Assembly: GCA_021741245.1 (NCBI GenBank)
Contig: JAIOYF010000004.1
Coordinates: 1-64,000, forward strand
DNA length: 64,000 bases
Direction of reading: 5' to 3'
DNA from: Paracoccaceae bacterium
Lineage (GTDB): Bacteria; Pseudomonadota; Alphaproteobacteria; Rhodobacterales; Rhodobacteraceae
Position 1 is the stretch's first letter. The number at the start of each line of letters is the position of its first letter. A program made the position numbers and the translations under genes. Shown here piece by piece: positions 4,997 to 35,220 of this stretch. The notes under the pieces are model-generated. The model was not told where the DNA came from, ran no database searches, and worked only from the letters and a program-made list of their open reading frames with translations.

Positions 4997-5021
4997 CCTG
5001 TTCCTCGCTGTGTCTGGTCCC

Positions 5022-13682: not shown

Positions 13683-13961
13683 ATGCGCCTCAACTGCCCC
13701 CATTGTGGCCCCCGTGACCGGCGAGAATTCTACTATTACGGGGCCGCCGCCTATCTTGACCGCCCCAGCCCCGATGCCCCGGCACAGGCATGGGATGACT
13801 ACTTGCACAACCGCGACAACCCGGCCGGCATGACGCAAGACCTGTGGTATCACGAGCAGGGATGCACGGCTTGGCTGAAGGTGACCCGCAACACGGTGAC
13901 GCATGAGATTATCGCTGTAGATGCAGTCGCCACACCCAAGGCGTCGGGGGGCATGGCATGA
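13683..13961 (+). CDS. soxD: Sarcosine oxidase delta subunit
   Basis: The 92-residue protein has the zinc-binding N terminus of the delta subunit, MRLNCPHCGPRD, together with EFYYYG and WYHEQGCTAWLKVTRNT, which supply further metal ligands (His, Cys). The delta subunit is structural in the heterotetramer. Its stop overlaps the soxA start by 4 nt, implying coupled translation. Confidence 0.96.
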   Translation: MRLNCPHCGPRDRREFYYYGAAAYLDRPSPDAPAQAWDDYLHNRDNPAGMTQDLWYHEQGCTAWLKVTRNTVTHEIIAVDAVATPKASGGMA

Positions 13962-16876
13962 GGATTGATGGCAAAGGTCGCATTGACCGCACCCGCCCGC
14001 TGACCTTTGCGTTCGATGGCGTCAGCTATCCGGCGTACAAGGGTGACACACTGGCCTCGGCCTTGATGGCCAATGACGTGCGCGTGGTCGGGCGCAGTTT
14101 CAAATACCACCGCCCGCGCGGCATCCTGACCGCAGGCAGCGAAGAGCCGGGCGCTTTGGTCGAAATCATGGGGCCCGCCAATCAGACCCCAAACACCCGC
14201 GCCACGGTGCAAGAGGTGTTCGAGGGGCTGACCGCGCGCAGCCAGAACCGCTGGCCATCCTTGCGCTGGGATCTTCTGGGCATCAACGATCTTGCCAGCC
14301 CCTTCTTGTCGGCCGGGTTCTACTACAAGACCTTCATGTGGCCGCGTGCTTTTTGGGAAAAGATCTATGAGCCGCTGATCCGCCGCGCAGCGGGGTTGGG
14401 CAGCTTGTCGGGCCGACATGACGAAGGCACCTATGAAAAGGCCTATGCCTTTTGTGATCTGCTGATCGTGGGCGCGGGGCCCACGGGCCTGATCGCGGCG
14501 CTTGCGGCGGGGCGTTCGGGGGCCGATGTGATCTTGGCCGAGGATGCTGCCGAAATGGGGGGGCGTCTGCTGTCGGATGAGGGGCAGATTGACGGTGCCC
14601 CTGCACAAGAGTGGCTGGCCTCTGTTCTGGCAGAGCTGGCCTTGATGCCAAATGTCCGGCTGATGCCGCGCACCGCCGTGACGGGGGCCTATGATGACGG
14701 CACCTATGGCGCGCTGGAGCGGGTGGGTCTGCACCGCAGGCCGCGCCCAAATCTGCCGCGCGAATGCTTCTGGCGCATCACGGCGCGTCGCACCATTCTT
14801 GCCACCGGAGCGCTGGAGCGCCCCATTGCCTTTGCCGACAATGACCGCCCCGGCATCATGATGGCCTCTGCCATGGCGAGCTATCTGAACCGTTATGGCG
14901 TGTCGCCGGGCCGCAAGGTGACGTTCTTTGCCAATAACGACAGCGCCCGCGCCACGGCCCGCAGCTTTGTCGCGGCTGGCCTTAGCGTGGCCGCAATCAT
15001 CGACAGCCGCCCCGACGCCCCGGATGAGGGGGATATTCCCGTCCACAAAGGCGCGGTGGTCATCGGCACCAAGGGCCGCCATGGCCTGCAAGAGATCACG
15101 CTGCGCACCGGGTCTGGCGAGGTTCGGCTTGAAACGGACGCGCTGGGCATGGCCGGGGGCTGGAACCCCAGCCTGCACCTGACCTGCCACATGAACGGCC
15201 GCCCGCGTTGGTCGGCAGAACTGGCGGCCTTTGTTCCGTCGCCGGGGGCTGTGCCAGGCCTTGTTGCGGCAGGGGCGGCCAATGGCACCTTCTCCACCCA
15301 TGGCTGCCTTGCGGCGGGGCTTGCGGCCGCGCAGGAGGTGCTGACCGATCTTGGCCACAAGGCTGCCCCGGTCGACCTGCCACAGGCCGAAAACGCCCCC
15401 TACACCATCTCGCCGCTTTGGGCAGTTCCGGGCAAAGGCCGGGCTTGGCTTGATTTTGCCAATGATGTGACAACCAAGGACGTGGCCCTTTCGGCGCAAG
15501 AGGGCTTCTCCTCTGTCGAGCATATGAAACGCTACACGACCCAAGGCATGGCCCCCGATCAGGGCAAGTCGTCGAATGTGGCCGCCTTGGCGGTGCTGGC
15601 CGATGCCACCGGGCGCGGCATCCCCGAAACCGGAACCACAACCTTCCGCCCGCCCTTTGTGCCGGTGTCCATCGCCGCCATGGGGGCAGGGGCCCGCGCC
15701 GAAGGTTTCGCGCCACAACGATTCATGACCTCCGATCAGGCCAGCCGCGACCGGGGTGCCCCGATGATCGAGGCAGGCCTGTGGTATCGCCCCAGCTATT
15801 TCCCGAAACCCGGCGAGACCACATGGCGTGAGGCTTGCGACCGCGAGGTGGCCATGGTGCGCAACTCGGTCGGCATCTCGGATGTCTCGACGCTGGGCAA
15901 GATCGATCTTCAGGGCCGCGATGCGGGACGCTTCCTTGATTTCGTCTACACCAACACCTTTTCCACCCTGCCAGTAGGCCGGGTCCGCTATGGGGTGATG
16001 CTGCGCGAAGATGGGCATGTGCTGGATGATGGCACCACCGCGCGGCTTGGCGAAAACCACTGGCTGATGACCACCACCACGGCGGCGGCGGGCCTTGTCA
16101 TGCGGCATCTGGATTTCGTGCATCAGGCCTTTTGTGCCGATTGGGATGTGCGGTTCATCTCTGTCACCGAACACTGGGCGCAGTTTGCCGTGGCGGGCCC
16201 AAAGGCGCGCGATTTGCTGACATCGGCCTTGGGGGCCGCACCGGGCCTGCCCTTCATGGGGGTGCGCGCGGCCACCATTCAGGGCGTTGCGGGGCGGGTG
16301 TTCCGCATCTCGTTCTCGGGCGAAGAGGGGTATGAGGTCGCCGTTCCCGCCCGCTATGGCGAGGCTTTGTTCCGCGATCTGACCGCCCGTGCCGAAACCA
16401 TGGGCGGCGGTCTTTACGGGATGGAGGCCCTGAACGTTCTGCGCATTGAAAAGGGTTTCATCACCCATGCCGAGATTCATGGCCGCACCACGGCTTTTGA
16501 CATTGGCATGGAAAAGATGGTCAGCGCCAAAAAGGACTGCATCGGCAAGGCTGCGGCCAGCCGTCCCGGCATGATTGGTGCGGCGCGCGCGCAACTGGTC
16601 GGCCTCAAACCCCTGACCGACAGCCCGCTGACGGCGGGGGCGCATCTGTTCACCCAAAGCGCGGATGTCAAGCGTGAGACGGATCAGGGCTATGTCACCT
16701 CGGTTGGCTATTCCCCCACCCTTGCCTCTTGGCTGGCCTTGGCCTTCCTCCATGATGGGCGCGCGCGGCACGGCGAAACGATCCGGCTCGTCGATCATCT
16801 GCGCAAGGTTGATGTGCTGTGCACCGTGACAGACCCCGTGTTCCATGACCCGATGGGAGAGAAACTTCGTGCCTGA
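13958..16876 (+). CDS. soxA: Sarcosine oxidase alpha subunit
   Basis: The 972-residue alpha subunit binds NAD+ and folate. The N-terminal domain (1-100, PLTFAFDGVSYPAYKGDTLASALMAN and SFKYHRPRG) has the ferredoxin-like fold without cluster cysteines. The central dinucleotide domain begins at about 168 (LLIVGAGPTGLIAALAAGRSG). The C-terminal 380 residues are GcvT/folate-binding type, where iminium carbon from sarcosine is passed to THF (YGVMLREDGHVLDDGTTARL, FSGEEGYEV). The length is typical. It overlaps both soxD and soxG. Confidence 0.96.
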   Translation: MRIDGKGRIDRTRPLTFAFDGVSYPAYKGDTLASALMANDVRVVGRSFKYHRPRGILTAGSEEPGALVEIMGPANQTPNTRATVQEVFEGLTARSQNRWPSLRWDLLGINDLASPFLSAGFYYKTFMWPRAFWEKIYEPLIRRAAGLGSLSGRHDEGTYEKAYAFCDLLIVGAGPTGLIAALAAGRSGADVILAEDAAEMGGRLLSDEGQIDGAPAQEWLASVLAELALMPNVRLMPRTAVTGAYDDGTYGALERVGLHRRPRPNLPRECFWRITARRTILATGALERPIAFADNDRPGIMMASAMASYLNRYGVSPGRKVTFFANNDSARATARSFVAAGLSVAAIIDSRPDAPDEGDIPVHKGAVVIGTKGRHGLQEITLRTGSGEVRLETDALGMAGGWNPSLHLTCHMNGRPRWSAELAAFVPSPGAVPGLVAAGAANGTFSTHGCLAAGLAAAQEVLTDLGHKAAPVDLPQAENAPYTISPLWAVPGKGRAWLDFANDVTTKDVALSAQEGFSSVEHMKRYTTQGMAPDQGKSSNVAALAVLADATGRGIPETGTTTFRPPFVPVSIAAMGAGARAEGFAPQRFMTSDQASRDRGAPMIEAGLWYRPSYFPKPGETTWREACDREVAMVRNSVGISDVSTLGKIDLQGRDAGRFLDFVYTNTFSTLPVGRVRYGVMLREDGHVLDDGTTARLGENHWLMTTTTAAAGLVMRHLDFVHQAFCADWDVRFISVTEHWAQFAVAGPKARDLLTSALGAAPGLPFMGVRAATIQGVAGRVFRISFSGEEGYEVAVPARYGEALFRDLTARAETMGGGLYGMEALNVLRIEKGFITHAEIHGRTTAFDIGMEKMVSAKKDCIGKAAASRPGMIGAARAQLVGLKPLTDSPLTAGAHLFTQSADVKRETDQGYVTSVGYSPTLASWLALAFLHDGRARHGETIRLVDHLRKVDVLCTVTDPVFHDPMGEKLRA

Positions 16877-17405
16877 CCTCATCGCAAAACCCGCCCTTGG
16901 CGCGGCCCCGCTCACGATTGCGGGGACAACCCTGTCAGAAAATGGCGCAACCCAGATCACCGCCATCGCCCCTTACCCCGGATCGCAAGCCGCCCTTGCG
17001 CAGGCGCTCAGACCGCTTGGCCTTACCTTCCCGGCGCCAAACCAGTTCACAGAACACGGCGATGTGCGTCTGGCGTGGAGCGGTCGTGATCAGGCCTTCT
17101 TGATCGGGGGGGAGGCCCCTGCCGATCTGCCTGCCGCCGTCACCGACCAATCAGATGCTTGGGTCAGCCTGCAGATTGCCGGACCTCAGGCCCGTGCGGT
17201 GCTGGCCCGATACGTCCCGCTTGATTTGCGCGCGGCCTCGCGTGGCCAGTCACTCCGCTCGGCCCTCAACCACCTGCCCCTTTTGCTGATGGTCGAAGCG
17301 CCCGACAGCTATACGCTGATGACCTTCCGATCCATGGCCCGCACAGCTTGGGCTGAACTGCATGAGGCGATGATCAAGGTCGAGGCGCGGCTTGCCCTGA
17401 CCTGA
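16869..17405 (+). CDS. soxG: Sarcosine oxidase gamma subunit
   Basis: The frame opens at 16845 inside soxA, but a GTG at 16869 preceded by GGGAGAG is the likely start, giving 178 residues, the usual size. The protein has the weakly conserved gamma-subunit fold, related to the folate-binding domain of the alpha subunit (WVSLQIAGPQARAVLARYVPLDL and HLPLLLMVEAPDSYTLMTFRS). It overlaps the end of soxA by 8 nt and closes the operon. Two hairpins follow. Confidence 0.93.
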   Translation: MPDLIAKPALGAAPLTIAGTTLSENGATQITAIAPYPGSQAALAQALRPLGLTFPAPNQFTEHGDVRLAWSGRDQAFLIGGEAPADLPAAVTDQSDAWVSLQIAGPQARAVLARYVPLDLRAASRGQSLRSALNHLPLLLMVEAPDSYTLMTFRSMARTAWAELHEAMIKVEARLALT

Positions 17406-19911: not shown

Positions 19912-21522
19912 ATGACGGACGACGTAGCAACCCCTTATCAGGCTTTTTACCGCACGGCGTCGCGCCGGTCTGATCTGGTGTTTGCCTTGGCGCCTGCCTC
20001 TGCCCGGCTGCCATGGGCGCCTGAGGGGTTTCAGATCACTTATGGGCAGTCGATGGATGCGGTGACCCGCCTGCGCGACGCCTATGTTGCGGCGGGCTAT
20101 GGCCGGGGATCGCGGATTGCCCTGCTGTTGCAAAACCGGCCAGAGTTCTTGCTGCACTGGTTGGCGCTGAACGCAATTGGTGCCTCGATCGTGCCGCTGA
20201 ACGCCGACATGCGCCCCGATGAGATGCGCTATCAGCTTGTGGTGTCGCAGGCCGAGGCCGTTATTGCGGCATCGGGGACCGGGCATCTGGTGCAAGACGC
20301 ACGTCCCGAAGGGGTTGCTGTCAGCCTTGCCCATGAAGCCCCGCCCCCCGCCGTGATCCGTCGCGCGCCCGATGGGGGCCATCCGCAGGATGAGGCCGCG
20401 CTTTTGTTCACTTCGGGCAGTACGGGCAAGCCAAAGGCCTGCATCTTGTCAAACGCCTACTTCCTCAATCTGGCGGAATGGTATGTCTCTATGCCGGGCG
20501 TGGCGGCGATGGAGAACGACCGCGAAATCTCTCTGACCCCATTGCCGTTCTTTCACATGAATGCGCTTGGCTGCACCGTCGTCGGGATGATGCTGATCGG
20601 CGGGGCGATTGTGCCGCTGGACCGGTTCCATCCGGATCGCTGGTGGGCCACGATTGCCGACAGCGGGGCCACAATCGTGCATTCGCTTGGCGTGATCCCG
20701 GCGATCTTGTTACAGCGCCCCCCAGTGCCCGAAGAGCGCACCCACCGTGCCCGGTTCACCTTTGGCCCCGGCGTCGATGCCCGCAACAAGATTGCGTTCG
20801 AGGCGCGGTTTGCCCTGCCCATCGTCGAGGGCTGGGCGATGACCGAAACCGGGGGGGCGGGCATCACCGATACTGCCGGGGTGGTTTATGAACCGGGGCG
20901 GCGCTGCATCGGCAGGCCAAGGGCTGGCATGGAATGGCGTGTGGTCAATGATGCGGGGCAGGATCAACCTGTCGGCGCAGCGGGTGAGCTGTTGGTGCGC
21001 AGTGCCGGGCCAGACCCGCGGCGGGGGTTCTTTTCGGGCTATCTGGGCGACCCCGACGCCACCGAGGCTGCATGGCAGGGTGGTTGGTTCCATACCGGTG
21101 ATATCGTGTCCTGCGATACAGCGGGGCTGTTGTACTTTGTGGATCGCAAGAAAAGCATCATCCGGCGGTCGGGCGAAAACATCTCGGCGCTGGAGGTGGA
21201 GGCGGCCCTGATGGCCGACCCAGCCGTGCAATCGGCTGCCGTGACGCCTGTGGCCGATGCGCTGCGTGATGAAGAGGTGTTTGCCTTTGTCGTGCCGGTT
21301 GATCCGCACGACCCCGATGCCGATCAGTTGCTGGCGCGGTTGGGTCAGGGGCTTTCGTATCACAAGCTTCCGGGATGGCTTTTGTTTGCCAAGTCGCTGC
21401 CGGTCAGTTCCACCCAAAAGCTGCAGCGCGGTCAGATCAAGGCCGATGCGGAGGCCGCCATCCGTGCCGGCAACGCGCTTGACCTGCGCCATGCCAAAAG
21501 CCGCCTGCGCGTGACATCCTGA
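19912..21522 (+). CDS. Adenylate-forming acyl-CoA ligase (first of two paralogues)
   Basis: The protein activates a carboxylic acid through an acyl-AMP to the CoA thioester. The 536 residues contain the P-loop-like TSGSTGKPKA (about 166-175), GWAMTETGG (about 306-314), the TGD of WFHTGDI, DRKKSIIRRSGENIS, and the catalytic A10 lysine in PVSSTQK near residue 503. It resembles carnitine/crotonobetaine-CoA ligases of the CaiC type, but the acid is unknown. A second ligase of the same subfamily starts at 25924. This is the first gene of the LysR-controlled block. Confidence 0.9.
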   Translation: MTDDVATPYQAFYRTASRRSDLVFALAPASARLPWAPEGFQITYGQSMDAVTRLRDAYVAAGYGRGSRIALLLQNRPEFLLHWLALNAIGASIVPLNADMRPDEMRYQLVVSQAEAVIAASGTGHLVQDARPEGVAVSLAHEAPPPAVIRRAPDGGHPQDEAALLFTSGSTGKPKACILSNAYFLNLAEWYVSMPGVAAMENDREISLTPLPFFHMNALGCTVVGMMLIGGAIVPLDRFHPDRWWATIADSGATIVHSLGVIPAILLQRPPVPEERTHRARFTFGPGVDARNKIAFEARFALPIVEGWAMTETGGAGITDTAGVVYEPGRRCIGRPRAGMEWRVVNDAGQDQPVGAAGELLVRSAGPDPRRGFFSGYLGDPDATEAAWQGGWFHTGDIVSCDTAGLLYFVDRKKSIIRRSGENISALEVEAALMADPAVQSAAVTPVADALRDEEVFAFVVPVDPHDPDADQLLARLGQGLSYHKLPGWLLFAKSLPVSSTQKLQRGQIKADAEAAIRAGNALDLRHAKSRLRVTS

Positions 21523-21531: not shown

Positions 21532-21960
21532 ATGATGACACCTGAAACCATCCTTTATGAGGCGACAATGACCGCAACCGGCGGCAGGCAGGGCCGGGCC
21601 GAAGCCCCCGATGGCAGCCTGACCTTGGCGCTGTCGGTGCCAAAGGGTCTGGGCGGGCCGGGGGGGGAGGGCACGAACCCCGAGCAACTCTTTGCCGCAG
21701 GTTATGCCGCCTGCTTTTTGGGTGCGGTCAAACTGGTCGGGCGGCAGCAGAAGATCTCCTTGCCGGATGACGCGACGGTCACGGCAACTGTGGGCATCGG
21801 CGGGGTCGATCCCGGCTATGCCTTGGCGGTTGAGCTTGGTGTTCATCTGCCAGGGATCGCGCCCGAGGTGGCCCAGTCCATCGTGCAGGCCGCGCATGAG
21901 CGGTGCCCCTATTCCCATGCGACGCGCGGGAATGTGGATGTGAAGCTGACGGTGGTCTAG
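21532..21960 (+). CDS. OsmC/Ohr-family peroxide-reducing protein
   Basis: The 142-residue protein matches Ohr (organic hydroperoxide resistance): ATGGRQGRA, NPEQLFAAGYAACFLGA with the first redox cysteine, and AHERCPYSHATRGNVDV with the second. Ohr reduces organic hydroperoxides using lipoylated partners. Two adjacent ATG codons (21532 and 21535) are possible starts. It lies 9 bp after the ligase and 3 bp before the thiolase-fold gene, so it is part of the catabolic operon and may detoxify peroxides made by its oxidases. That role is inferred. Confidence 0.92.
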   Translation: MMTPETILYEATMTATGGRQGRAEAPDGSLTLALSVPKGLGGPGGEGTNPEQLFAAGYAACFLGAVKLVGRQQKISLPDDATVTATVGIGGVDPGYALAVELGVHLPGIAPEVAQSIVQAAHERCPYSHATRGNVDVKLTVV

Positions 21961-21963
21961 CCC

Positions 21964-23130
21964 ATGGCCCTGCCGCGCGGATATGATGGGGTTGTTCTGG
22001 CGGTGCCTGTGACCGTGCCCTATGTCCGCCATTCCACGCGGTCCGCGCAATGGTGGGTGGGCCGCGCCTTGGCCGCCCTTGCGCAAGCGTCCGGCATCAG
22101 CCACCACGAATTTGATGGGCTGTCGGTTGCCAGCTTTTCGCTCGCCCCCGATACCTCAATCGGCCTGACCCAGCATTTCGGGCTGTCGCCGCGGTTCATT
22201 GACTTTCTGCCCTTGGGCGGGGTGGCCGGGGTGGTGGGGCTGCGTCGGGCCGCACGGGCGGTGCAGGCGGGCGATTGCGATGTGGTGGCCTGTGTCGCCG
22301 CTGATACCAATGCGCCACAGTCCTTTCGCCAATCGCTGGAGCAGTTCTCGCGCTTTTCGCAAGATGCGGTTTACCCCTATGGGGCGGGCGGGCCGAATGT
22401 CAGCTTTGCCCTGATCGCGCAGGCCTTCATGGCGGCAACCGGGCTTGAGCGGTCGGATATCGCCCGCCTTGCTGTGGCGCAGCGGGAAAATGCCCTGCGC
22501 AACCCCGATGCCTTGATGAAAAAGCCGCTGAGTGTGGACGAGTATATGAACGCCCGCGCCATCGCCCCGCCGATCCATCTGTTTGATTGCGTGATGCCCT
22601 GCGCCGGGGCCGAGGCGTTTTTGGTCATGCGTGAGGCTGCGGCCCTTGCCCAAGGCCTGCCCTTTGTGCGGCTGACGGCGGCGATTGAACGGCACAATGG
22701 TTTTCCCACCGATCCAGTGATGCTGCGCGGCGGTTGGGCCCGCGATGTGACGGATCTGTGGGCCATGGCGGGGGTTGGGCCTGATGCGGTGGATCTGGTG
22801 CAGACCTATGACGATTACCCCTTTGTCAGCGCCATGCAATTTGCCGATCTGGGGTTTTGCGCGCCTGCGGCCTTGCCCGAATTCTTGCGGGGCCATGATT
22901 TCACCGTGATGGGCGATCTGCCACACAACACCTCGGGCGGGCAGTTGTCGGTGGGGCAGGCGGGCTGTGCGGGCGGGCATCTGGGGCTGGTCGAGGCGCT
23001 GCGCCAATTGACCGCCACGGCGGGCGCGCGTCAGGTCAAGGGCGCAAGGCGCGCGCTGGTGTCGGGCTTTGGCATGATCACTTATGATCGCGGCCTTGGC
23101 TCGGGCGCGGTTGTGTTGGAGGCGGCGTGA
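21964..23130 (+). CDS. Thiolase-fold protein lacking the usual nucleophilic cysteine (SCP2/Ltp2-like)
   Basis: The 388 residues have the thiolase double fold (GYDGVVLAVPVTVPYVRHSTR at the start, NTSGGQLSVGQAGCAGGHLGLVEA near the end). At the place of the acylated cysteine (NxxCASG in true thiolases) it reads FLPLGGVAGVVG, with no cysteine. The C-terminal GHPxGxxG motif is changed to GQAGCAGG. Such thiolase-like proteins pair with DUF35 zinc-ribbon proteins, and some (Ltp2 in steroid breakdown) are retro-aldolases. The next gene encodes a DUF35 domain, which fits a complex. True thiolysis would need a different nucleophile. Confidence 0.82.
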   Translation: MALPRGYDGVVLAVPVTVPYVRHSTRSAQWWVGRALAALAQASGISHHEFDGLSVASFSLAPDTSIGLTQHFGLSPRFIDFLPLGGVAGVVGLRRAARAVQAGDCDVVACVAADTNAPQSFRQSLEQFSRFSQDAVYPYGAGGPNVSFALIAQAFMAATGLERSDIARLAVAQRENALRNPDALMKKPLSVDEYMNARAIAPPIHLFDCVMPCAGAEAFLVMREAAALAQGLPFVRLTAAIERHNGFPTDPVMLRGGWARDVTDLWAMAGVGPDAVDLVQTYDDYPFVSAMQFADLGFCAPAALPEFLRGHDFTVMGDLPHNTSGGQLSVGQAGCAGGHLGLVEALRQLTATAGARQVKGARRALVSGFGMITYDRGLGSGAVVLEAA

Positions 23131-24353
23131 TGCGCGACAAGAAGAACCCAACGTTGCGCACGCGCCACCCGCTGTTGCCCCCGGCAGCCCGCAGCACGGC
23201 GGCACATTTGCTGACCGCGGCGGCGGCGCAGGGTCGCTTTGCCCTGCCATGCTGCACCCAATGCGGGCGTTTTGCTTGGCCCATGCCCGAGGCTTGCCCC
23301 GAGTGTCTGGCCGAGGTGGCGCTAAAGGACGCGCCAAACGAGGCGCGCCTGATCTCGGCGACAAAGGCCGAAGTCCCGGCTGACAGCTATTTTCGTGAGC
23401 GCGCGCCGTGGTGGGTTGGGCTTGTCCAGATGGGCTGCGGTCCGCAAGCCTTGGTGCATCTGCACCCCGCCGCACAGGTGGGCGATGCGCTGGACATGAC
23501 CCTGATGCTGGACCGAGCGGGGCAAGCCGTTTTGCACGCCGGGCCCATAGGAGGCGATATGACAACCGATCCCCAATGGCAGCATATGACAGCCGATCCG
23601 CGCGGGCGGCGGATCCTGATCACCGATGCGCGCCATATTGCCGCCCTGCCGCTGGCCATTGCATTGGCCGGGGCGGGGGCAGCGGCGATCTTTGCAGGCG
23701 TGCCTGAGATGTGGAAACCCTTACCGCAGCGCGAGGCCCTGTTGGCCGTGCCGGGGCTGGTTCTGGTGCCGCTGGATGTGACGTCGGACAGGTCTGTGGC
23801 GGATCTGGCCCATGATATCGGCGGCAAGGTTGAAATCTTGATCAACACTGCCGATCTGCCACGCCCCGGCGGGTTGACGGCACCAACTGCGCAGGCAGAT
23901 GCGCGTGCGGCGATGGAGACGGTGGCCTTTGGGCTGATGCGGCTGGCGCGCAGCTTTGGCCCGCCAATGACTGCGCGCGGTGCTGATGGGCCGCTTGGGG
24001 CGGTGGCTTGGGTCAATGTGCTGTCGGTCTTTTCGCGCGCGCACCCACCGGCGCTTGCGGGTTACGGGGCGGCCCATGCGGCGGGCTTGGCCCTGTGCCA
24101 TGCCCTGCGTGCCGATCTGGCAACAGGTGGCCTGCGCCTGATGACGGTGCTGACGGGCCCGACCGAGGATGACTGGTTCCAGACCTTTGACCCGCCCAAG
24201 GTCAGCGGCAAGGCGCTGGCCGCCGCGATTGTCGCGGGTTTGCAGCGCGGGCTTGAAGAGGTGAGCGTTGGCGATCTGGCCAAGGATCTGCTGCAACGCC
24301 TTGACGAAAACCCCAAGGCGGTTGAGCGGGCCTTGGCCTCTGGTCGGATATAG
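23130..24353 (+). CDS. Fusion of a DUF35 zinc-ribbon/OB domain with a degenerate short-chain dehydrogenase
   Basis: The gene overlaps the thiolase-fold gene by one base (TGATG; a GTG at 23127 is an alternative). Residues about 40-130 form an acyl-CoA-associated DUF35 domain with four zinc cysteines (CTQCGR and CPEC). Residues about 150-350 form an SDR-like Rossmann domain. The usual TGxxxGIG is replaced by LITDARHIAALPLA, and the catalytic YxxxK reads YGAAH, so the lysine is missing. In characterised systems DUF35 proteins bind thiolase-fold partners, for example in benzylsuccinate (BbsA/BbsB) and steroid side-chain breakdown. The SDR part may be structural or use another chemistry. Confidence 0.82.
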   Translation: MRDKKNPTLRTRHPLLPPAARSTAAHLLTAAAAQGRFALPCCTQCGRFAWPMPEACPECLAEVALKDAPNEARLISATKAEVPADSYFRERAPWWVGLVQMGCGPQALVHLHPAAQVGDALDMTLMLDRAGQAVLHAGPIGGDMTTDPQWQHMTADPRGRRILITDARHIAALPLAIALAGAGAAAIFAGVPEMWKPLPQREALLAVPGLVLVPLDVTSDRSVADLAHDIGGKVEILINTADLPRPGGLTAPTAQADARAAMETVAFGLMRLARSFGPPMTARGADGPLGAVAWVNVLSVFSRAHPPALAGYGAAHAAGLALCHALRADLATGGLRLMTVLTGPTEDDWFQTFDPPKVSGKALAAAIVAGLQRGLEEVSVGDLAKDLLQRLDENPKAVERALASGRI

Positions 24354-24356: not shown

Positions 24357-25145
24357 ATGGCGATGGATGTGCTTGCAACCCTGATTTCGGCACTGGCCTG
24401 CGGGCAGGTGCGCGTGGTCGATCTGACCCAAACCTTGACCGAGGATTTCCCGACCATCGTCTTGCCGCCCGAGTTTGGCCAATCCGCCCCCGTGCGGATC
24501 GAGCAGATCGCACACTATGATGCCGCTGGCCCCGCGTGGTACTGGAACAACCTCAGCTTTGGCGAACATACCGGCACACATTTTGATGCCCCGGCGCATT
24601 GGTTCACCGGGCGGGATGTGGCGCGCGGCACGGTCGATACCCTGCCCGCCGAGGATATGATCGCCCCGGCCTGCGTGGTCGATTGCACGGCAGGCTGTGC
24701 TGCGGACCCCGATTTCTTGCTGACCCGCCAGCAGCTTGAGGCATGGGAGGCCAGCCATGGCCGCATTCCCCAAGGTGCTTGGGTGCTGATGCGGTCCGAT
24801 TGGTCGCAGCGCAAGGGCGCGGCCTATGCCGGGCTGCGCGGCGATGGCGCCCATACCCCCGGCCCGGATGCCGAGGCGATGCGCTGGTTGGTGCAAGAGC
24901 GGGGCATTTTGGGTTTCGGCACCGAAACGATCGGCACCGATGCGGGGCAGGGCGGCGATTTCACGCCCTCCTATCCCGCGCATCACTATTTGCATGGGGC
25001 AGGGCGCTATGGGCTGCAATGCCTGACCAACCTGCATTTGCTGCCGCCCACGGGCGCTGTGCTGCTGGCGGCCCCGCTTAAGGTGCACGCAGGTTCGGGC
25101 AGCCCCTTGCGGGTGCTGGCCTTGGTCACGGGGGATGAGGCATGA
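24357..25145 (+). CDS. Cyclase-family metal-dependent hydrolase (kynurenine formamidase-like)
   Basis: The 262-residue protein carries the cyclase-family signature HTGTHFDAPAHW, which holds the binuclear metal ligands HxGTHxDxPxH. VVDLTQTLTEDFP is the typical N terminus and TNLHLLPPTGAVLLAAPLK the typical C terminus. Known members hydrolyse N-formylkynurenine, isatin and similar ring or formamide bonds. It is 3 bp after the DUF35-SDR gene and overlaps the next gene by 4 nt. A ring-opening or deformylation step fits the context; the substrate is unknown. Confidence 0.9.
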   Translation: MAMDVLATLISALACGQVRVVDLTQTLTEDFPTIVLPPEFGQSAPVRIEQIAHYDAAGPAWYWNNLSFGEHTGTHFDAPAHWFTGRDVARGTVDTLPAEDMIAPACVVDCTAGCAADPDFLLTRQQLEAWEASHGRIPQGAWVLMRSDWSQRKGAAYAGLRGDGAHTPGPDAEAMRWLVQERGILGFGTETIGTDAGQGGDFTPSYPAHHYLHGAGRYGLQCLTNLHLLPPTGAVLLAAPLKVHAGSGSPLRVLALVTGDEA

Positions 25146-25927
25146 AAATCTGGTGGCAAAGCTTTATCGATGCGGCCTCGAACCCCGCCTATATCACCCG
25201 GCTTTCGGCCTATCTGAATTCCATTGCTACTGCAGGCACCACGGTCGAGGTGCATGGCATCTCGCCGCCGGACCGGGGGTTTTCGCGCCTGTCAGAGTTT
25301 CGCTGTGCGGTCATTGCGGTCGACAACGGGCTGGAGGCCGCCGAGCAGGGCTATGACGCCATGGTGATCGGGCATTTTCAGGACTCGGGGCTTTATGAGT
25401 TGAAATCGGCCGTCGCCATCCCGGTCGTGGGGACGGGAGAGGCAACCTTGCATCTTGCGGCGCAGATGGGGCGGCGCATCGGGCTTGTGACCTTGGATGA
25501 TGTCTACCGCGCGTGGCATCTTGAACAGGGCGACCTTTATGGCCTGTCGCAGCGCATTTCGCATGTGGCGGGGATGAATTGCGACCCGTCTGATTTCGGG
25601 GCCTGTTTTGCCGGGGATATGGAGGCAAAGGCCCGCATGCTTGCAGTGTTTCGCACGGTGGCAGAGCCGATGGTGGCCGGGGGGGCAGATGTCATTGTGC
25701 CTGCGGGTGTGTTGCCCGGCCTGTTGATCGGCGGTGAATATGGATTGCGGATCGGTCATGCGCCGGTGATCAACTGTGCGGCTGTGGCCCTGATGCAGGC
25801 CGAAACCTTGATCCGATTGCGGCGGTTGAACGGTCTGGAACCGGCTGGAGGGCCGTTTTGTGCGCGGGCCCCGGCGCAGGCTGTCGAGGATTTCCGTGCG
25901 CTTGTGGCACGGGGGCGGGGCGCATGA
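25142..25927 (+). CDS. Asp/Glu/hydantoin racemase-superfamily protein without catalytic cysteines
   Basis: The 261-residue protein has the racemase-superfamily fold (IWWQSFIDAASNPAYITRLSAYL, VVGTGEATLHLAAQMGRRIGLVT). Hydantoin racemases use two cysteines, in GCFGDP and LGCAGM contexts. The aligned positions here read IGHFQDSGL and PAGVLPGL, so neither cysteine is present. A racemase mechanism is therefore unlikely; related folds include maleate isomerase and arylmalonate decarboxylase, which also rely on cysteine. The true reaction cannot be stated. Both ends overlap neighbours by 4 nt (ATGA), which indicates tight coupling. Confidence 0.78.
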   Translation: MKIWWQSFIDAASNPAYITRLSAYLNSIATAGTTVEVHGISPPDRGFSRLSEFRCAVIAVDNGLEAAEQGYDAMVIGHFQDSGLYELKSAVAIPVVGTGEATLHLAAQMGRRIGLVTLDDVYRAWHLEQGDLYGLSQRISHVAGMNCDPSDFGACFAGDMEAKARMLAVFRTVAEPMVAGGADVIVPAGVLPGLLIGGEYGLRIGHAPVINCAAVALMQAETLIRLRRLNGLEPAGGPFCARAPAQAVEDFRALVARGRGA

Positions 25928-27534
25928 TCGGCGTGGCCTCGCCTTCTGCCCTATTGGCGCAGCAGGCGCAGATTTTTGCCACGCAACCCCTGTTCATCTT
26001 GCCCGAACAAGTGGCCAGCCTGTGGCAAAGCCCTCGTGACGTCTGGACCTATGCCGAAGTGGCGGCAGAGGTGACGGCACTGCGCGGCCTTTATGCGGGG
26101 GCCGGGTATCGCCACGGGCATCGCGTGGCGCTGATGCTGGAAAACCGGCCTGATCATTTCATCCATTGGCTGGCGCTGAACGGGCTGGGCGTCAGCGTGG
26201 TGCCGCTGAACCCCGATGCGACCGGGCCGGAACTGGCGTGGATGCTGCACCACGCGGGTGCCTGTCTGGTGGTTGCCTTGCCCCATCGCCTGCCGCAGGT
26301 ATCGGGCCATGGGATCGCCGCGATTGGCGCAGGCGACGCGCCGCCCCCAGCCCCCGCGTCTTTGGCGCAGGTTGAGCCCGGCGAATGTGCGCTGATCTAT
26401 ACATCGGGCACAACGGGGCGGCCCAAGGGCTGTCTGTTGTCGGACCATTACTTTCTGACGTGGGGCCTGTGCTATGGCGCGCAACCCGCCCCGATTGCGC
26501 TGCAAGCCGGACAAGAGCGGCTGATGACGCCGCTGCCTGCCTTTCACGTCAATGCCATGGGCAACAGTTTCATGGGGATGCTGGCCACAGGTGGCGCACA
26601 GGTCATCGTTGACCGCTTTCATCCGCGCAGTTGGTGGGCCATGGCGCAGGCAACCAAGGCCACCTGCTTTCACTATCTGGGAGTGATGCCCGCCATCCTT
26701 TTGTCCCTGCCCGAGGGGCCGCAGGACCGGGCGCATCACTTCCGCTTTGGCTTTGGCGGCGGGGTGCATCCCGATCATCACGCCGCCTTTGAGACCCGCT
26801 TTGGCGTGCCCTTGCTGGAGGGCTGGGCCATGACCGAAACCGGGGGGGCCTGTCTGCTGGTATCTGCAAGCGCGCCGCGACATGTCGGCACGCGCAGCCT
26901 TGGCCGCGCCTCGCGCCCCGGCCCCGCGATGGAGACCCGCTTGATCGACGATGCGGGCCGGGACGTGGAGCAAGGCAAGCCGGGCGAGTTGCTGGTGCGG
27001 GCTAAGGGCGATGATCCGCGCTCGGGCCTGTTCTCGGGCTATCTGAATGATCCTGTGGCCACCGCCGCGATCTGGGCGGGGGGGTGGCTGCACACGGGTG
27101 ACATTATGCGCCAAGGCCTCGATGGCACTTTGCACTTCGCCGACCGCAAGAAGAACATGATCCGCCGCTCGGGCGAGAACATCTCGGCGCTGGAGGTGGA
27201 GGGCGTGCTGAACGCCCATCCGATGGTCGCGCAGGCCGCTGTCGTGGCCGCAGATGACCCGATCCGTGAGGAAGAGGTGATGGCCATCATCGTGCCCAAG
27301 CCCGGCGCGGATGAGGCGGCACTGGCCCATGACCTGCTGGCGCATGTCGCGGCGCGCCTCGCCTATTTCAAGGTGCCCGGCTTTGTCGTGTTCCGCGATG
27401 CCTTGCCCGTCACTTCGACCCAAAAGGTGCGCAAGGCCGATCTGGGCGAGCTGTCACGACAGCCCATGGAGGATGCGCGGGCCCATGATCTGCGCATTCA
27501 AAAGCAGGCCCTGCGAAAGGCCGCAGGTTTGTAG
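25924..27534 (+). CDS. Adenylate-forming acyl-CoA ligase (second paralogue)
   Basis: The start at the ATG at 25924 overlaps the preceding stop by 4 nt and gives 536 residues, the same length as the first ligase in this block. Motifs are YTSGTTGRPKG (about 158-168), GWAMTETGGACL (about 300), LHTGDI, DRKKNMIRRSGENIS and the A10 lysine in PVTSTQKVRKAD. The two ligases share long identical stretches (for example RRSGENISALEVE) and clearly arose by duplication. Their differing C-terminal and substrate-pocket regions suggest two different acids. It ends the first sub-block, before the TRAP genes. Confidence 0.9.
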   Translation: MIGVASPSALLAQQAQIFATQPLFILPEQVASLWQSPRDVWTYAEVAAEVTALRGLYAGAGYRHGHRVALMLENRPDHFIHWLALNGLGVSVVPLNPDATGPELAWMLHHAGACLVVALPHRLPQVSGHGIAAIGAGDAPPPAPASLAQVEPGECALIYTSGTTGRPKGCLLSDHYFLTWGLCYGAQPAPIALQAGQERLMTPLPAFHVNAMGNSFMGMLATGGAQVIVDRFHPRSWWAMAQATKATCFHYLGVMPAILLSLPEGPQDRAHHFRFGFGGGVHPDHHAAFETRFGVPLLEGWAMTETGGACLLVSASAPRHVGTRSLGRASRPGPAMETRLIDDAGRDVEQGKPGELLVRAKGDDPRSGLFSGYLNDPVATAAIWAGGWLHTGDIMRQGLDGTLHFADRKKNMIRRSGENISALEVEGVLNAHPMVAQAAVVAADDPIREEEVMAIIVPKPGADEAALAHDLLAHVAARLAYFKVPGFVVFRDALPVTSTQKVRKADLGELSRQPMEDARAHDLRIQKQALRKAAGL

Positions 27535-31323: not shown

Positions 31324-32016
31324 GTGACTGAAACCTTTGCCATCAAACGCCAGCCCGCCCTTGCCGTGCAGGTCTATGACCAATTGCGCCAGATGCTGGG
31401 GGCACAGGTGTTTGAACCCGGTGCGCGTCTGGTGGAAGAGGATATCAGCCGCCGCCTGTCGGTCTCGCGCACCCCGGTGCGCGAGGCGTTGTTTCGGCTT
31501 GAACAGATGGGACTGGTTGAACAGGGCGACGGTGGCTTTCGCGTGCCCCGGCTGACCTTGCAAGATGTGCACGAGATCTTCCAGATGCGGCGGCTTTTGG
31601 AACCGCAGGCCGTGGCGGATATTGCCCTTGCGCTTACCGAGGCTGACATGCCCGCGCAACGCGCTGGGCGGGACCGCATGCTGGCCGCCACCACCGAGGA
31701 GGAGGCCGCCGCCGCCAATATCGCGTTTCGGGCGCTGTGGTTGTCGCATATCCCCAATCGCCGGATGCAAGATGTTCTGGCCCGGTTTGACGGGCAGGTT
31801 GTGCTGGTGCGGCGGGCAACCCTGCGCTCTGCGGCCGCACGGTCCCTTGCCACGGCGGGCGTCTGCGCCTTGGTCGATGCGTTCGAGGCGCGCGATCCGG
31901 TCACGGCCCGCCGCGTGATGGAAGATTTCATTGATGCCGCCCTTGCCTCGTTTGAAGAGGTGGTGACGGTGGCGGCCTTGGGTAGCCTTCCCCTTCAGAC
32001 AGAAAGCAAGCCATGA
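31324..32016 (+). CDS. GntR-family regulator, FCD type
   Basis: A GTG at 31324 preceded by GGAGAG is the likely start (230 residues); the frame is open from 31288. Residues about 15-75 are the GntR winged helix (QVYDQLRQML, LSVSRTPVREALFRLEQMGLV). Residues about 85-215 are an FCD all-helical effector domain (FQMRRLLEPQAVADIALAL), which binds metal and carboxylates. Its stop overlaps the next start by 4 nt. It probably represses the TRAP-aldolase block until its substrate is present, perhaps through TGTATACAGTATGCA at 27555. Confidence 0.9.
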   Translation: MTETFAIKRQPALAVQVYDQLRQMLGAQVFEPGARLVEEDISRRLSVSRTPVREALFRLEQMGLVEQGDGGFRVPRLTLQDVHEIFQMRRLLEPQAVADIALALTEADMPAQRAGRDRMLAATTEEEAAAANIAFRALWLSHIPNRRMQDVLARFDGQVVLVRRATLRSAAARSLATAGVCALVDAFEARDPVTARRVMEDFIDAALASFEEVVTVAALGSLPLQTESKP

Positions 32017-33101
32017 CAGTGCATCCGATCTATGGGCCCAACCGGTTCAAGCTGGGGATCTTTGCCGCCAATGCCGATGGTGGCCTGACCGTGACCAAGG
32101 TGCCCGAACGCTGGCCCGCAGCATGGGAGGGCGTTGTCGCGGCGGCGCGGATTGCCGACCGGGCGGGGATTGAGTTCTTTTTGCCCATTGCGCGCTGGAA
32201 GGGGTTTGAGGGCGAAACCAATTCCCGGCAGTACTCCTATGAGACCTTTACCTTTGCGGCGGCCCTTTCGGGGGTGACTGAACGGATCGGCCTGTTTTCC
32301 ACCGTGCATGTGCCAATGGTTCACCCGTTGTTTGCGGCCAAGGCCTTGGCGACGGTAGATCAGGCCTCCAACGGGCGGGCGGGGCTGAACATCGTGGCGG
32401 GCTGGAACCCCGACGAATTCGCCATGTTCGGGCTGGAGCGGGTCGAAGCCCCCTATGATCAGGCAAGCGAATGGATCGAGATCATTTCGCGGCTTTACGC
32501 CCAGACCGAGCCTTTTGACCATGAGGGCGCCTATTACACGATGCGCAACGCCGTGACCTTGCCCAAGCCTGTGGCAGGCAAGCGTCCACCGGTTCTGAAC
32601 GCAGCCTTTTCGCCACCGGGCCGGGCCTTTGCCGCCCAGAATGCGGATTTTCTGTTCACCACCTTCAAAAGCATCGCCGCAGGCAAGACCACGATCGAGG
32701 ATATGGCGGCGCGGTCGTCCGATACAGGACGTCAGGTCGGCGTCTATACCACAACCCATGTGGTCTGCCGCCCAACCCGGGACGAGGCCGAGGCCTATTA
32801 TCACCATTATGCCGTCACGATGGCAGATACTGCGGCACTGGATTACATGATGGGCAAGCAGGCGGCCAATGCCAGCAACCATGATCCCGAAACCTATCAG
32901 CTTCACCGAAAATGGTTTGCAGGCGGGGCGGGGACCTTTCCGCTGATCGGCACGCCACAAGACATTGCCGAACAGATGGTAGAGATGTCACGGGCGGGGT
33001 TTGCCGGAACCACGGTCAGTTTTGTCAATTTCGCGCAAGAATTGCCGTATTTCTGCGACACCGTGTTGCCGCTGCTGGTCAAGGCGGGATTGCGCGCATG
33101 A
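32013..33101 (+). CDS. RutA-like flavin-dependent monooxygenase (LLM class)
   Basis: The 362-residue protein is a bacterial luciferase-like monooxygenase of the RutA/SfnG group. The signature includes YSYETFTFAAALSGVTERI, FSTVHVPMVHPLFAAKALATVDQ and NIVAGWNPDEFAMFG. RutA opens the uracil ring by a flavin-N5-peroxide; relatives oxidise sulfones and aminopolycarboxylates. They need FMNH2 from a flavin reductase, and no RutF-like reductase is encoded nearby. An oxidative ring-opening or C-N cleavage step fits the context. It overlaps both neighbours by 4 nt. Confidence 0.88.
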   Translation: MTVHPIYGPNRFKLGIFAANADGGLTVTKVPERWPAAWEGVVAAARIADRAGIEFFLPIARWKGFEGETNSRQYSYETFTFAAALSGVTERIGLFSTVHVPMVHPLFAAKALATVDQASNGRAGLNIVAGWNPDEFAMFGLERVEAPYDQASEWIEIISRLYAQTEPFDHEGAYYTMRNAVTLPKPVAGKRPPVLNAAFSPPGRAFAAQNADFLFTTFKSIAAGKTTIEDMAARSSDTGRQVGVYTTTHVVCRPTRDEAEAYYHHYAVTMADTAALDYMMGKQAANASNHDPETYQLHRKWFAGGAGTFPLIGTPQDIAEQMVEMSRAGFAGTTVSFVNFAQELPYFCDTVLPLLVKAGLRA

Positions 33102-34474
33102 CCGTGTTGTCCCAGCTTTTGGCCACCCTTGGCCCCGATGTGGTCACCCGTGGGGCCGCAGTCCCCGACCGCAATCGCCATGATTGGTCCGGGGACGCGC
33201 CGGTTGAACCGCTTGCCCTGATCCGGCCACGCAGCGTGGAGGAGGTGTCTGCCGCCCTGCGCATTTGCCATGCAAGCCACACCCCGGTGGTTGCACAGGG
33301 CGGATTGACCGGAATTTCTGGCGGGGCGATGCCGATTGCACAGGGTGTGGCCCTTTCGCTTGAACGGATGAACCGCGTGATCGACGTGGACCCCGGCCAA
33401 GCGACCCTGAGTGCCGAGGCTGGCTGCCTGCTGGAGGTCGCACAAAATGCCGCGACCGAACAGGGGCTTATGCTGGCCATCGACCTTGGCGCGCGCGGCA
33501 GTTGCACACTTGGCGGTGTCATCTCGACCAATGCGGGCGGCAATCAGGTGCTGCGCTATGGCATGACGCGCGAGCATGTCTTGGGCGTCGAGGTGGTGCT
33601 GGCCGATGGCACCATCTTGCCCGCGATGAACCGTCTGCTGAAGAACAATGTCGGTATCGACCTCAAGCACCTGTTCATAGGGTCCGAAGGGTTGCTGGGC
33701 ATCGTGACCAAAGCGGTCTTTCGTCTGCAACCCCGCCCGACCCATGGGGCCACGGCCTTTGTCGGCTGTGCATCTTCGGGGGCGATGCTGGATTTGCTGC
33801 GCCGTGTGCGCGCGGCGCTTGGGCCTGATCTGATCTCGTTCGAGGTGATGTGGCCCAGCTTTTATGACATCATGCGCGAGGGCATCGCGGCCCCCCATCC
33901 GCTTGCGGAACGCCATGGTGTTTACGTGATCGTCGAGGCGGGGGGCTTTGATCCGCAGGTTCGCGACCGGCTGGAAACCTGCCTTGCGGATGCCATGGCG
34001 GCGGGGGCGTTGGCGGATGCGGTGATCGGGGCCAATCTGCGCGAAGACCGCAGCTTTTGGGCGGTGCGGGAATCCGTCACGCATTATGCGCGCATTCTTG
34101 GCCCGCTCACCGCCTTTGATATCGGCATCCCGCTGGATCGCATGGCCGCCGCCGTGGCCGATCTGGAGGCGGCCTTGCGGGCGCGCTGGCCTGATGTGCG
34201 GGCGTTGAGTTATGGCCACATGGGCGACAGCAACCTGCATCTGGTGGTCAATTGCCCCTCGGCTGTGGTGCAACCGTCCAAAGAGATCAAGGCGCTGGTC
34301 TATGGCATGACCCGCGACCTTGGCGGCACCGTGTCTGCCGAACATGGCATTGGCACGTCGAAGCGCGATGTGATTGGCTATAGCCGGTCTGCGGAAGAAT
34401 TGGCCACCATGCGCGCCCTCAAGGCCACGCTTGATCCCCACACCATCCTCAACCCCGGAAAGAGCTTTTCATGA
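33098..34474 (+). CDS. FAD-linked oxidase, D-lactate/2-hydroxy acid dehydrogenase type
   Basis: The ATG at 33098 overlaps the monooxygenase stop and gives 458 residues. The protein has the PCMH-type FAD-binding domain (PLALIRPRSVEEVSAALRI, GGLTGISGGAMP, GARGSCTLGGVISTNAGG) and a C-terminal domain with SYGHMGDSNLHLVVN and EHGIGTSKRD, as in D-2-hydroxyglutarate and D-lactate dehydrogenases and GlcD. It likely oxidises a 2-hydroxy acid intermediate to the 2-oxo acid, which would suit a following aldolase acting in reverse. The exact acid is unknown. Confidence 0.9.
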   Translation: MTVLSQLLATLGPDVVTRGAAVPDRNRHDWSGDAPVEPLALIRPRSVEEVSAALRICHASHTPVVAQGGLTGISGGAMPIAQGVALSLERMNRVIDVDPGQATLSAEAGCLLEVAQNAATEQGLMLAIDLGARGSCTLGGVISTNAGGNQVLRYGMTREHVLGVEVVLADGTILPAMNRLLKNNVGIDLKHLFIGSEGLLGIVTKAVFRLQPRPTHGATAFVGCASSGAMLDLLRRVRAALGPDLISFEVMWPSFYDIMREGIAAPHPLAERHGVYVIVEAGGFDPQVRDRLETCLADAMAAGALADAVIGANLREDRSFWAVRESVTHYARILGPLTAFDIGIPLDRMAAAVADLEAALRARWPDVRALSYGHMGDSNLHLVVNCPSAVVQPSKEIKALVYGMTRDLGGTVSAEHGIGTSKRDVIGYSRSAEELATMRALKATLDPHTILNPGKSFS

Positions 34475-35220
34475 CATCCCTGCGCGCGCGTATCGCCGCC
34501 GCTGCCCGGCCCGAGCAAGCACCGCTTCTGGGGCCCTTTCTGGCGGTGCCTGCCGCGATGGTGGTAGAAATCGCCTGCGCCTCGGGCCCCGATTTCGTCT
34601 GCATCGATATGGAGCATGGCCCGATCTCGGCCCAAACGGGCGAGGCGATGGTGCGGGCGGCTGCGCTTTACGAGGTGCCTGCCTTGGTGCGGGTGCCCGG
34701 CGTGGACGCCGTGGCCATCGGTCAGGCGCTGGATTGGGGGGCAGAGGGGGTTTTGGTGCCACGGGTGAACTCGGCCCAAGATGCCCGCCAAGCGGTGGAT
34801 GCCGCGCGCTATCCGCCGAAGGGCAGTCGCGGGGCCGGGCCGGGCCGCGCCGCGGGCTATGGGCGGGCGATCCCGGCGGCGATTGCGCGGGCGCGCCGGG
34901 ATACCGTGGTTGCCGTGCAAATCGAAACCCTGCCAGCCCTTGATGAACTGGAGGCCATTCTGGCGGTAGAAGGGGTGGACCTGTTCTTCATCGGTCCGGG
35001 CGATCTGCAATTGGGGTTGGAGGCGGCTGGCCGACCGGAACCGATTGGCTCGGTGATTGGCCAGATTTTGCAGGCCTGCCGCGAAAAGGGCAGGCCCTGC
35101 GGCCTTTTCGCAATGACGCGCGACGCCCTGTCGCCCTATGATGATCAGGTGGCGCTTGGGATCATCGGTTCGGATGCAACGGTGCTGATCGCAGGGTTCG
35201 ACGCGATGTACGGCGCGTGA
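34471..35220 (+). CDS. HpcH/HpaI-family aldolase
   Basis: The class II, divalent-metal aldolase cleaves a 4-hydroxy-2-oxo acid to pyruvate plus an aldehyde. The 249 residues contain FVCIDMEHGPIS, ALVRVPG (arginine), GAEGVLVPRVNS, VVAVQIET (metal-binding Glu) and GPGDLQLGL (metal-binding Asp). Length and motifs match HpaI, GarL and RhmA. Its stop lies 13 bp before the convergent FAD reductase-like gene. It closes block 1 and should deliver pyruvate to central metabolism. Confidence 0.92.
   Translation: MTSLRARIAAAARPEQAPLLGPFLAVPAAMVVEIACASGPDFVCIDMEHGPISAQTGEAMVRAAALYEVPALVRVPGVDAVAIGQALDWGAEGVLVPRVNSAQDARQAVDAARYPPKGSRGAGPGRAAGYGRAIPAAIARARRDTVVAVQIETLPALDELEAILAVEGVDLFFIGPGDLQLGLEAAGRPEPIGSVIGQILQACREKGRPCGLFAMTRDALSPYDDQVALGIIGSDATVLIAGFDAMYGA

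Follow-up and report, generated by a model that had tools for sequence, protein, structure and literature searches.

Root bacteria carrying the iad pathway are reported to remove auxin and to relieve the inhibition of root growth, and further root bacteria are being equipped with the pathway by engineering (PMC12633357). Two of its proteins, IadG and IadH, have the published roles of a ketothiolase and an alcohol dehydrogenase, respectively (PMC12633357). Here we describe a related gene pair in 64,000 nucleotides of DNA from a Paracoccaceae bacterium (GCA_021741245.1, contig JAIOYF010000004.1, positions 1 to 64,000 of the forward strand; hereafter the window). The pair, at positions 21964 to 24353, encodes a thiolase-fold protein lacking the nucleophilic cysteine and a fusion of a DUF35 domain with a degenerate short-chain dehydrogenase/reductase (SDR) domain. 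Sequence comparison makes it probable that these are the IadG/IadH unit of an isatin-forming auxin-degradation module, in which the first protein would perform a retro-aldol cleavage with assignable catalytic residues, DUF35 would hold the complex together, the pseudo-SDR domain would be a scaffold and an isatin hydrolase would be encoded next in line.

BbsAB, the benzoylsuccinyl-coenzyme A (CoA) thiolase (7PXP), is one described case of a thiolase fold bound to DUF35. The Bbs pathway also has an inactive SDR subunit, in BbsCD, and its DUF35 and SDR are separate proteins. In the bile-acid aldolase CtSal–CtShy (9MYR), a retro-aldolase whose nucleophile site holds Gly instead of Cys, the DUF35 partner is joined to a second domain, a MaoC hydratase. 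The steroid aldolase TcLtp2–ChsH2 (6OK1) likewise uses a thiolase fold as an aldolase and has DUF35 joined to a catalytically inert domain. Tyr344 of TcLtp2 is described as the acid (PMC12329534), while the MaoC domain of ChsH2 is reported to lack catalytic residues and to bind the steroid rings, with DUF35 apparently unimportant for the activity of the ChsH2-bound aldolase (PMC11321319).

Correspondence of the gene pair to iadG and iadH

The pair and its immediate neighbours are arranged in the order ligase, Ohr, thiolase-fold protein, fusion and cyclase:

19912 to 21522, + strand: acyl-CoA ligase A, IadF-like (PF00501; 42% identity to the Ruegeria pomeroyi protein at the IadF position)
21532 to 21960, + strand: Ohr-family peroxiredoxin (TIGR03561, E = 4.9e-51), a companion of the module in many loci that lack IadCDE
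21964 to 23130, + strand: IadG-like thiolase-fold protein of 388 residues, without the nucleophilic Cys, predicted retro-aldolase (best solved-structure sequence match 9myr)
23130 to 24353, + strand: IadH-like DUF35–pseudo-SDR fusion of 407 residues (Pfam; full length in 43 further loci; AlphaFold model)
24357 to 25145, + strand: IadI-like isatin hydrolase (PF04199; isatin hydrolase A, 5nnb, E = 5.1e-113 over residues 5 to 258)

This confirmed that the pair lies downstream of an IadF-type ligase and upstream of an IadI-type cyclase, and the order ligase, thiolase-like gene, DUF35–SDR fusion, cyclase is shared with the iad loci of Variovorax paradoxus CL014 and R. pomeroyi. The cyclase was classed as an isatin hydrolase on its full-length similarity to 5nnb, 5nna, 5nmp and 4j0n; the original prediction, made from this DNA alone, had overlooked this gene, the neighbour that points to the product. 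On its megaplasmid R. pomeroyi DSS-3, which we take to be strain ATCC 700808, carries genes for a reductase, Rieske alpha and beta subunits, an AMP-binding ligase, a thiolase, a DUF35–SDR fusion, a cyclase and an SDR, in that order, and the gene order in Roseibium aggregatum is identical. This order agrees with the published roles of iadC to iadJ (PMC12633357). It also agrees with the IMG numbers given for the genes in PMC10374108, which leave the order within E–F and H–J unfixed. Indole-3-acetate degradation has been reported for several strains, R. pomeroyi (ATCC 700808) being one of them (PMC9613470).

The window proteins were 58% (G), 40% (H) and 57% (I) identical to those of R. pomeroyi. 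The G/H/I trio was found inside eight iadCDEFGHIJ-like loci (R. pomeroyi, Roseibium, L050, L055 and L078 to L081). Locus L050, from outside the window's class, carries the full iad set, and an alignment of its IadD to 7yls and 9o71 runs from end to end, with 25 mismatches in 437 positions by hand count; 9o71 is the Variovorax IadDE entry (PMC12633357).

By these comparisons the window pair corresponds to IadG and IadH of the iad locus, and it is not the unknown new complex that had been proposed. Deleting any one of iadF, iadG, iadH and iadI in V. paradoxus CL014 is reported to lower anthranilate, with accumulation of C10H9NO4 (PMC12633357), and the requirement for both genes of the pair was thus already known from knockouts. 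Among the papers listed by full-text searches of the open-licence literature (PMC), none treats IadG as an aldolase, and none describes the DUF35–SDR fusion with its redox-dead SDR or the YDDY motif.

A thiolase-fold protein without the nucleophilic cysteine

Two short motifs of the thiolase-fold protein are central to its assignment:

22216 to 22230, + strand: GGVAG, residues 85 to 89, the loop that bears the nucleophilic Cys in thiolases (alignment of 43 proteins)
22807 to 22818, + strand: YDDY, residues 282 to 285, aligned with YDCY (Tyr302, Cys304) of CtSal and YDHF of TcLtp2

Residues 82 to 92 read LPLGGVAGVVG, and the nucleophilic Cys of Cys-keeping thiolases aligns with Gly86, which bears out the original prediction that GGVAGVVG stands at this site. 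Throughout, counts out of 43 for IadG refer to the window and 42 further proteins, and counts out of 44 for the fusion to the window and 43 others. Gly85 and Gly86 were invariant (43/43); none of the 43 proteins had Cys at residues 85 to 89, and two had Cys at residue 92. The near-invariant Cys residues at 110, 209, 213 and 299 occupied other alignment positions in the 43 proteins, so that, as judged by alignment, the nucleophilic Cys expected in the N-terminal half of a thiolase is missing.

The best sequence match among solved structures was the aldolase CtSal (9myr, E = 8.1e-47), followed by 4u4e, TcLtp2 (6ok1), 7yvy and BbsB (7pxp), the last with only E = 7.1e-19, far below CtSal. On a hand-counted alignment (offset 24), Tyr302, Cys304, Tyr305, Gln347 and Gln352 of CtSal correspond to Tyr282, Asp284, Tyr285, Gln327 and Gln332 of IadG, and Arg216, Gly89, Gln161 and Tyr165 to Arg198, Gly86, Pro144 and Phe148. 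Tyr282, Gly86 and both Gln (GGQLSxGQ) were invariant in the 43 proteins, and Arg198 was kept in 42. IadG therefore shares with CtSal the Gly at the nucleophile site and the counterparts of Tyr302, Gln347, Gln352 and Arg216, and differs from it in having Asp for Cys304 and Pro or Ala for Gln161; in TcLtp2 the motif is YDHF, whereas in IadG it is YDDY.

The marks of a DUF35-dependent retro-aldolase of the Sal/Ltp2 type, namely no nucleophilic Cys together with the Tyr of a YDxF/Y motif, were present in the IadG-like proteins. The YDCY motif with the essential Cys304 that defines Sal proper was not, since all 43 have YDDY. IadG may act like a Sal but is not a Sal. Of the two activities that had been suggested for the protein, retro-aldolase or thiolase-like, the first is supported and sharpened from Ltp2-like to Sal-like, and the second is disfavoured.

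For comparison, DUF35 was searched for in 41 genomes (the window's own and its relatives), which gave 22 places in 12 genomes; the window holds its genome's only DUF35 match, and also its sole match to the thiolase-like protein at 1e-5. With the window's place excluded, a thiolase-like frame was found in 20 of 21 stretches (none in L087). One of these, L094 from the same genus as the window, was a further copy of the thiolase-like/fusion pair, leaving 19 controls. Cys occupied the nucleophile position in 5 of them and was absent in 14; among the latter it lay one position on in four (L089, L090, L096, L097), and three and four residues on in one (L098). Because 14 of the 19 control thiolases also lack Cys there, its loss beside DUF35 is common and unremarkable alone. 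YDDY, by comparison, occurred in 43/43 IadG-like proteins and 0/19 controls, and it is the fusion, YDDY and the downstream isatin hydrolase that are the features specific to the pair.

A DUF35 domain fused to a degenerate SDR domain

The fusion protein comprises the following parts:

23253 to 23306, + strand: zinc ribbon of DUF35, C42-x2-C45...C56-x2-C59, kept in 44/44
23328 to 23489, + strand: OB-fold part of DUF35, residues 67 to 120 (PF01796, E = 1.2e-5, 25.5 bits against a cut-off of 27.1)
23601 to 24341, + strand: degenerate SDR domain, about residues 158 to 404 (5u4s_B, Z = 31.0, root-mean-square deviation 1.9 over 236 aligned residues)

The gene starts at ATG 23130, sharing one base with the stop codon of the thiolase-fold gene (TGATG), and GTG 23127 is an alternative start; the one-base overlap and the fusion were both as originally predicted. 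In Pfam, zf-ChsH2 and OB_ChsH2_C matched the N-terminal part, both slightly under their cut-offs, and adh_short the C-terminal part. The zinc ribbon is intact, with all four zinc Cys (CxxC...CxxC) invariant. The AlphaFold model was fair to good (predicted local distance difference test (pLDDT) 79.5, predicted template-modelling score 0.80) and the best fold match of its SDR part was 5u4s, the nearest fold match being an NADP-bound SDR. DUF35 was not among the best 50 matches of each fold list, which the SDR domain fills, and this is not evidence against it.

A frameshift in the fusion was looked for and none was found. In 43 further loci the frame runs open through almost all of the query, on which basis a chance fusion or frameshift was rejected. 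One search of genome G840 gave a single TGA inside the fusion match; the frame of the same genome in L081 was open over query residues 1 to 411.

The first Gly of TGxxxGxG was replaced by Asp (40) or Asn (4) in all 44 fusions, and the second and third Gly were kept in 1 and 23, respectively. YxxxK was intact in three (L075, L077, L082) and broken in 41, the window copy reading YGAAH. The TGxxxGxG plus YxxxK combination of an active SDR was thus lacking in the IadH-like fusions, so that the loss of the glycine motif and catalytic lysine predicted for the window extends across the clade. Four solo SDR relatives sampled had TGxxxGIG in 4/4 and YxxxK in 3/4, and both motifs were kept in two IadJ. 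From these sequences, the best reading of the pseudo-SDR is a non-redox scaffold or a part of the substrate pocket, not a dehydrogenase. By analogy, IadH looks like the ChsH2 design with an SDR in place of the MaoC domain, which is inert in ChsH2 and a hydratase in CtShy.

Distribution of the pair

The census drew on named genome contigs (18 loci), further genomes and plasmids (35 records matched, 3 examined), and yielded 43 distinct full-length fusion loci besides the window. It was seeded with full-length fusion matches, so that constant fusion is partly built in. L053 (on a contig shared with L030), L001 to L006, L042 to L049 and L062 to L072 (the same places as longer stretches), L007 (a locus cut by the contig end) and L008 to L020 (no fusion) were left out; genome G1023 (L094, L131) carries the fusion and stands outside the census counts. 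The fusion was present in 8/398 genomes of the phylum and 2/16 of the genus, both including the window genome, and in 11/399 genomes of the order of G636. This order we take to be Burkholderiales, because L050 carries a full iad set with an IadD nearly matching that of Variovorax.

Counts of neighbouring genes cover the examined stretch around each locus. The thiolase-like gene lay directly upstream of the fusion in 42/43 loci and 7.5 kb away in L038. A cyclase-family (isatin-hydrolase-like) gene followed the fusion on the same strand in 43/43. The start of its matched part lies within 220 bases in all loci but L058, where it lies at 859.

A reverse search with the IadG alignment in the 399 genomes of the order of G636 returned 15 places in 13 genomes. 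Twelve of these (E of 8.8e-189 or better) adjoin the 12 fusion places found in that order. The remaining three comprise L127/L132, on a small contig with a cut-short DUF35, L128/L133, with a solo DUF35, and L130/L134, where neither DUF35 nor the fusion was found in the examined stretch; the examined stretches of all three yielded no isatin hydrolase. In the IadG tree, 44 sequences including those of the window, R. pomeroyi and Roseibium formed a clade without intruders (local support 0.958), which the three distant YDDY proteins, all without a fused SDR, joined in a clade of 47 (local support 0.962). As these relatives lack both the fused SDR and, in the examined stretch, an isatin hydrolase, the SDR part was probably added within the isatin-forming clade. 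Furthermore, the cut-short or solo DUF35 beside L127 and L128 makes DUF35 look like the basic partner of YDDY thiolase-fold proteins.

Proposed reaction and alternatives

In the reaction that we propose, an IadF-like CoA ligase would make dioxindole-3-acetyl-CoA, a beta-hydroxyacyl-CoA, and IadG would cleave it to isatin and acetyl-CoA by retro-aldol chemistry. Tyr282 would act as base on the tertiary hydroxyl of the substrate. The general acid would be Asp284, at the site of CtSal Cys304, with Gln327 and Gln332 close to it. The DUF35 domain of IadH would dock on IadG; the SDR domain, with its motifs lost, would serve as scaffold or as part of the substrate pocket, and the isatin hydrolase would open isatin to isatinate, en route to anthranilate. 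The analysis shows sequences, motifs, gene order and homology directly, and from these we infer the reaction, the roles of the residues, the existence of the complex and a feed of indole-3-acetate or one of its close oxidation products; a steroid, the substrate of CtSal, is surely not to be expected in an iad setting. Dioxindole-3-acetyl-CoA carries its beta-hydroxyl as a tertiary alcohol; by established chemistry a retro-aldol cleavage to isatin and acetyl-CoA is possible for it and thiolysis is not. The residue roles follow those given for CtSal (PMC12329534).

A CoA-ester substrate supplied by a neighbouring ligase, as originally suggested, is supported. Isatin is named as the product because the neighbouring gene encodes an isatin hydrolase. 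The formula bookkeeping fits, in that C10H9NO4 would lead to isatin (C8H5NO2) and its hydrolysis to C8H7NO3, a formula reported as detected (PMC12633357). The breakdown of indole-3-acetate is known to pass through isatin (PMC6117287, PMC9613470), and isatin (in CL14), isatinic acid, dioxindole and anthranilate are reported from Variovorax cultures (PMC9613470). If this is true, side-chain cleavage in the iad pathway would be a retro-aldol step giving isatin directly, with one partner redox-dead, where the step has so far been read from annotation as the work of a ketothiolase and an alcohol dehydrogenase. The pair would also show another way of building a DUF35-bound aldolase.

Several points weigh against this assignment. 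The CtSal variants C304A, C304S and C304H are all reported to be dead (PMC12329534). Since none of these three residues can stand in for Cys304, Asp284 must work in a changed setting. Gln161, the proposed oxyanion-hole residue of CtSal, is Pro in 37 and Ala in 6 of the 43 IadG proteins. For the thiolase-fold protein the AlphaFold model was poor (pLDDT 48), so that the active site is read here from sequence alignment. The correspondence to iad was drawn through the R. pomeroyi and Roseibium proteins rather than the CL014 sequences. A close IadD is missing from the window genome, where the best match reaches 33% over part of the protein, and the window has no IadJ match and no listed match to IadC, IadD or IadE. 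The main conflict is with the published interpretation: C8H7NO2 is reported upstream of IadI, from which the authors inferred a reductive step (PMC12633357). We would instead regard C8H7NO2 (dioxindole, isatin plus 2H) as a reduced side product formed when isatin is not hydrolysed.

Of the alternatives, the one that survives best retains the retro-aldolase and changes its feed from indole-3-acetate to a plant oxindole-acetate or another indole acid, perhaps with a ring-substituted isatin as the product. It overlaps with the proposal above, so the two are not exclusive, and we consider it a real possibility, though less likely than not. The starting compound may differ in this organism because its genome has no close IadD and the window no IadJ match; the window is an iad-like core and, by sequence, not a complete iad locus. 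Where the iad locus has IadC, IadD, IadE and IadJ, the window has the Ohr gene and the first three of the following genes, and loci of its type lack IadCDE and IadJ, many having Ohr, the racemase-family gene and a luciferase-like monooxygenase (LLM) instead:

25142 to 25927, + strand: Asp/Glu-racemase-family protein (PF01177; 23 related open reading frames (ORFs)), likewise seen with the module in many loci that lack IadCDE
25924 to 27534, + strand: acyl-CoA ligase B, IadF-like (PF00501; 44% identity to the R. pomeroyi protein at the IadF position; ORF listed from TTG 25858, probable start ATG 25924)
32013 to 33101, + strand: LLM, candidate replacement for IadCDE (PF00296; in 15/43 fusion loci)
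34471 to 35220: HpcH/HpaI protein

The identities of G, H and I to the proteins of R. pomeroyi, a reported indole-3-acetate degrader, speak for the usual feed.

The published roles, with IadG a ketothiolase, IadH an alcohol dehydrogenase and, together with IadF, a reductive removal of the side chain to dioxindole (C8H7NO2), draw on the accumulation of that formula in an iadI deletion strain and in a strain expressing iadCDEFGH_JK2 (PMC12633357). We consider them improbable. No IadG has a Cys at the nucleophile position (0/43), IadH has lost the first cofactor Gly in 44/44 and the YxxxK in 41/44, and by established chemistry thiolysis is open only to compounds with a beta-keto group and so not to a tertiary beta-hydroxy acid. 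Dioxindole could be a side product, and isatin itself has been detected in CL14 cultures (PMC9613470).

An active SDR domain in IadH, working as an isatin or oxindole dehydrogenase despite its odd motifs, would suit the SDR fold predicted with good confidence, the NADP-bound nearest match and the three copies of 44 that keep YxxxK, but it is very improbable given Asp or Asn for the first cofactor Gly in every copy, the YxxxK broken in the other 41 and the motifs kept by the solo SDR relatives and both IadJ.

A candidate flavin-dependent front end

An IadD-like Rieske gene was found in 13/43 loci (a 24% match in L057 was left out). The 15 loci with an LLM gene all fell among the 18 loci L021 to L037 and L041, from Rhodobacteraceae and Rhizobiales; the three without it were L021 and L034, whose stretches end early, and L041. 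In L026 a flavin reductase gene follows the LLM gene. A flavin-dependent front end is thus possible in part of the group. More speculatively, window-type loci could be a third kind of aerobic auxin or oxindole-acetate breakdown locus, in which the dioxindole acid would come from a two-component luciferase-type flavin monooxygenase, instead of the Rieske IadCDE of iad or the IacA of iac, and would be cut to isatin by an Asp-dependent YDDY thiolase-fold aldolase on a DUF35–pseudo-SDR partner, perhaps docked to the isatin hydrolase. We hold this extended scheme to be possible but less likely than not. No LLM gene was found in the examined stretch of L051, L052, L054 and L061, and the odds of the scheme are lowered by these loci and L041, which carry an Ohr or racemase-family gene. 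If the retro-aldolase reading holds, Rhodobacteraceae and Rhizobiales may contain a further group of auxin degraders.

It was also considered whether the pseudo-SDR docks to the SDR IadJ, on the model of BbsCD. An IadJ-like gene was clear in only 8/43 fusion loci (two matches of 30 to 31%, in L035 and L041, were left out), which weakens this idea and makes IadJ unlikely as a general partner of the pseudo-SDR.

Further observations

The racemase-family protein at 25142 to 25927 reads GHFQD and VPAGVLP, that is His and Ala/Gly, at what we presume to be the two catalytic Cys sites of hydantoin and allantoin racemases (9 of 23 aligned ORFs inspected).

Near the fusion in L038 (10335 to 14103), two ORFs were judged by eye to be the two subunits of an indolepyruvate oxidoreductase. 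The Agrobacterium pusense plasmid locus L041 carries a thiamine-pyrophosphate enzyme and trpC near the module (4206 to 5852), suggesting possible isatinate decarboxylation and anthranilate reuse. Within the Variovorax-like iad locus L050, a second ORF pair (3197 to 4900) is 46 to 48% identical to IadE and IadD.

Elsewhere in the window, a frame of 1038 residues at 13850 to 16966 is antisense to the 972-residue ORF at 13958 to 16876 and is probably a by-product of base composition. A second catabolic island at 35234 to 53639 encodes hydantoinase A/B, three isochorismatases, the large and small parts of an aconitase, two MmgE/PrpD proteins, a PEP-mutase/isocitrate-lyase-family protein and two FAD_binding_2 enzymes, perhaps for the breakdown of an N-heterocycle or a branched dicarboxylate. 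Within the same region, a tautomerase domain and a SnoaL_2 domain are joined in a single ORF at 41814 to 42362.

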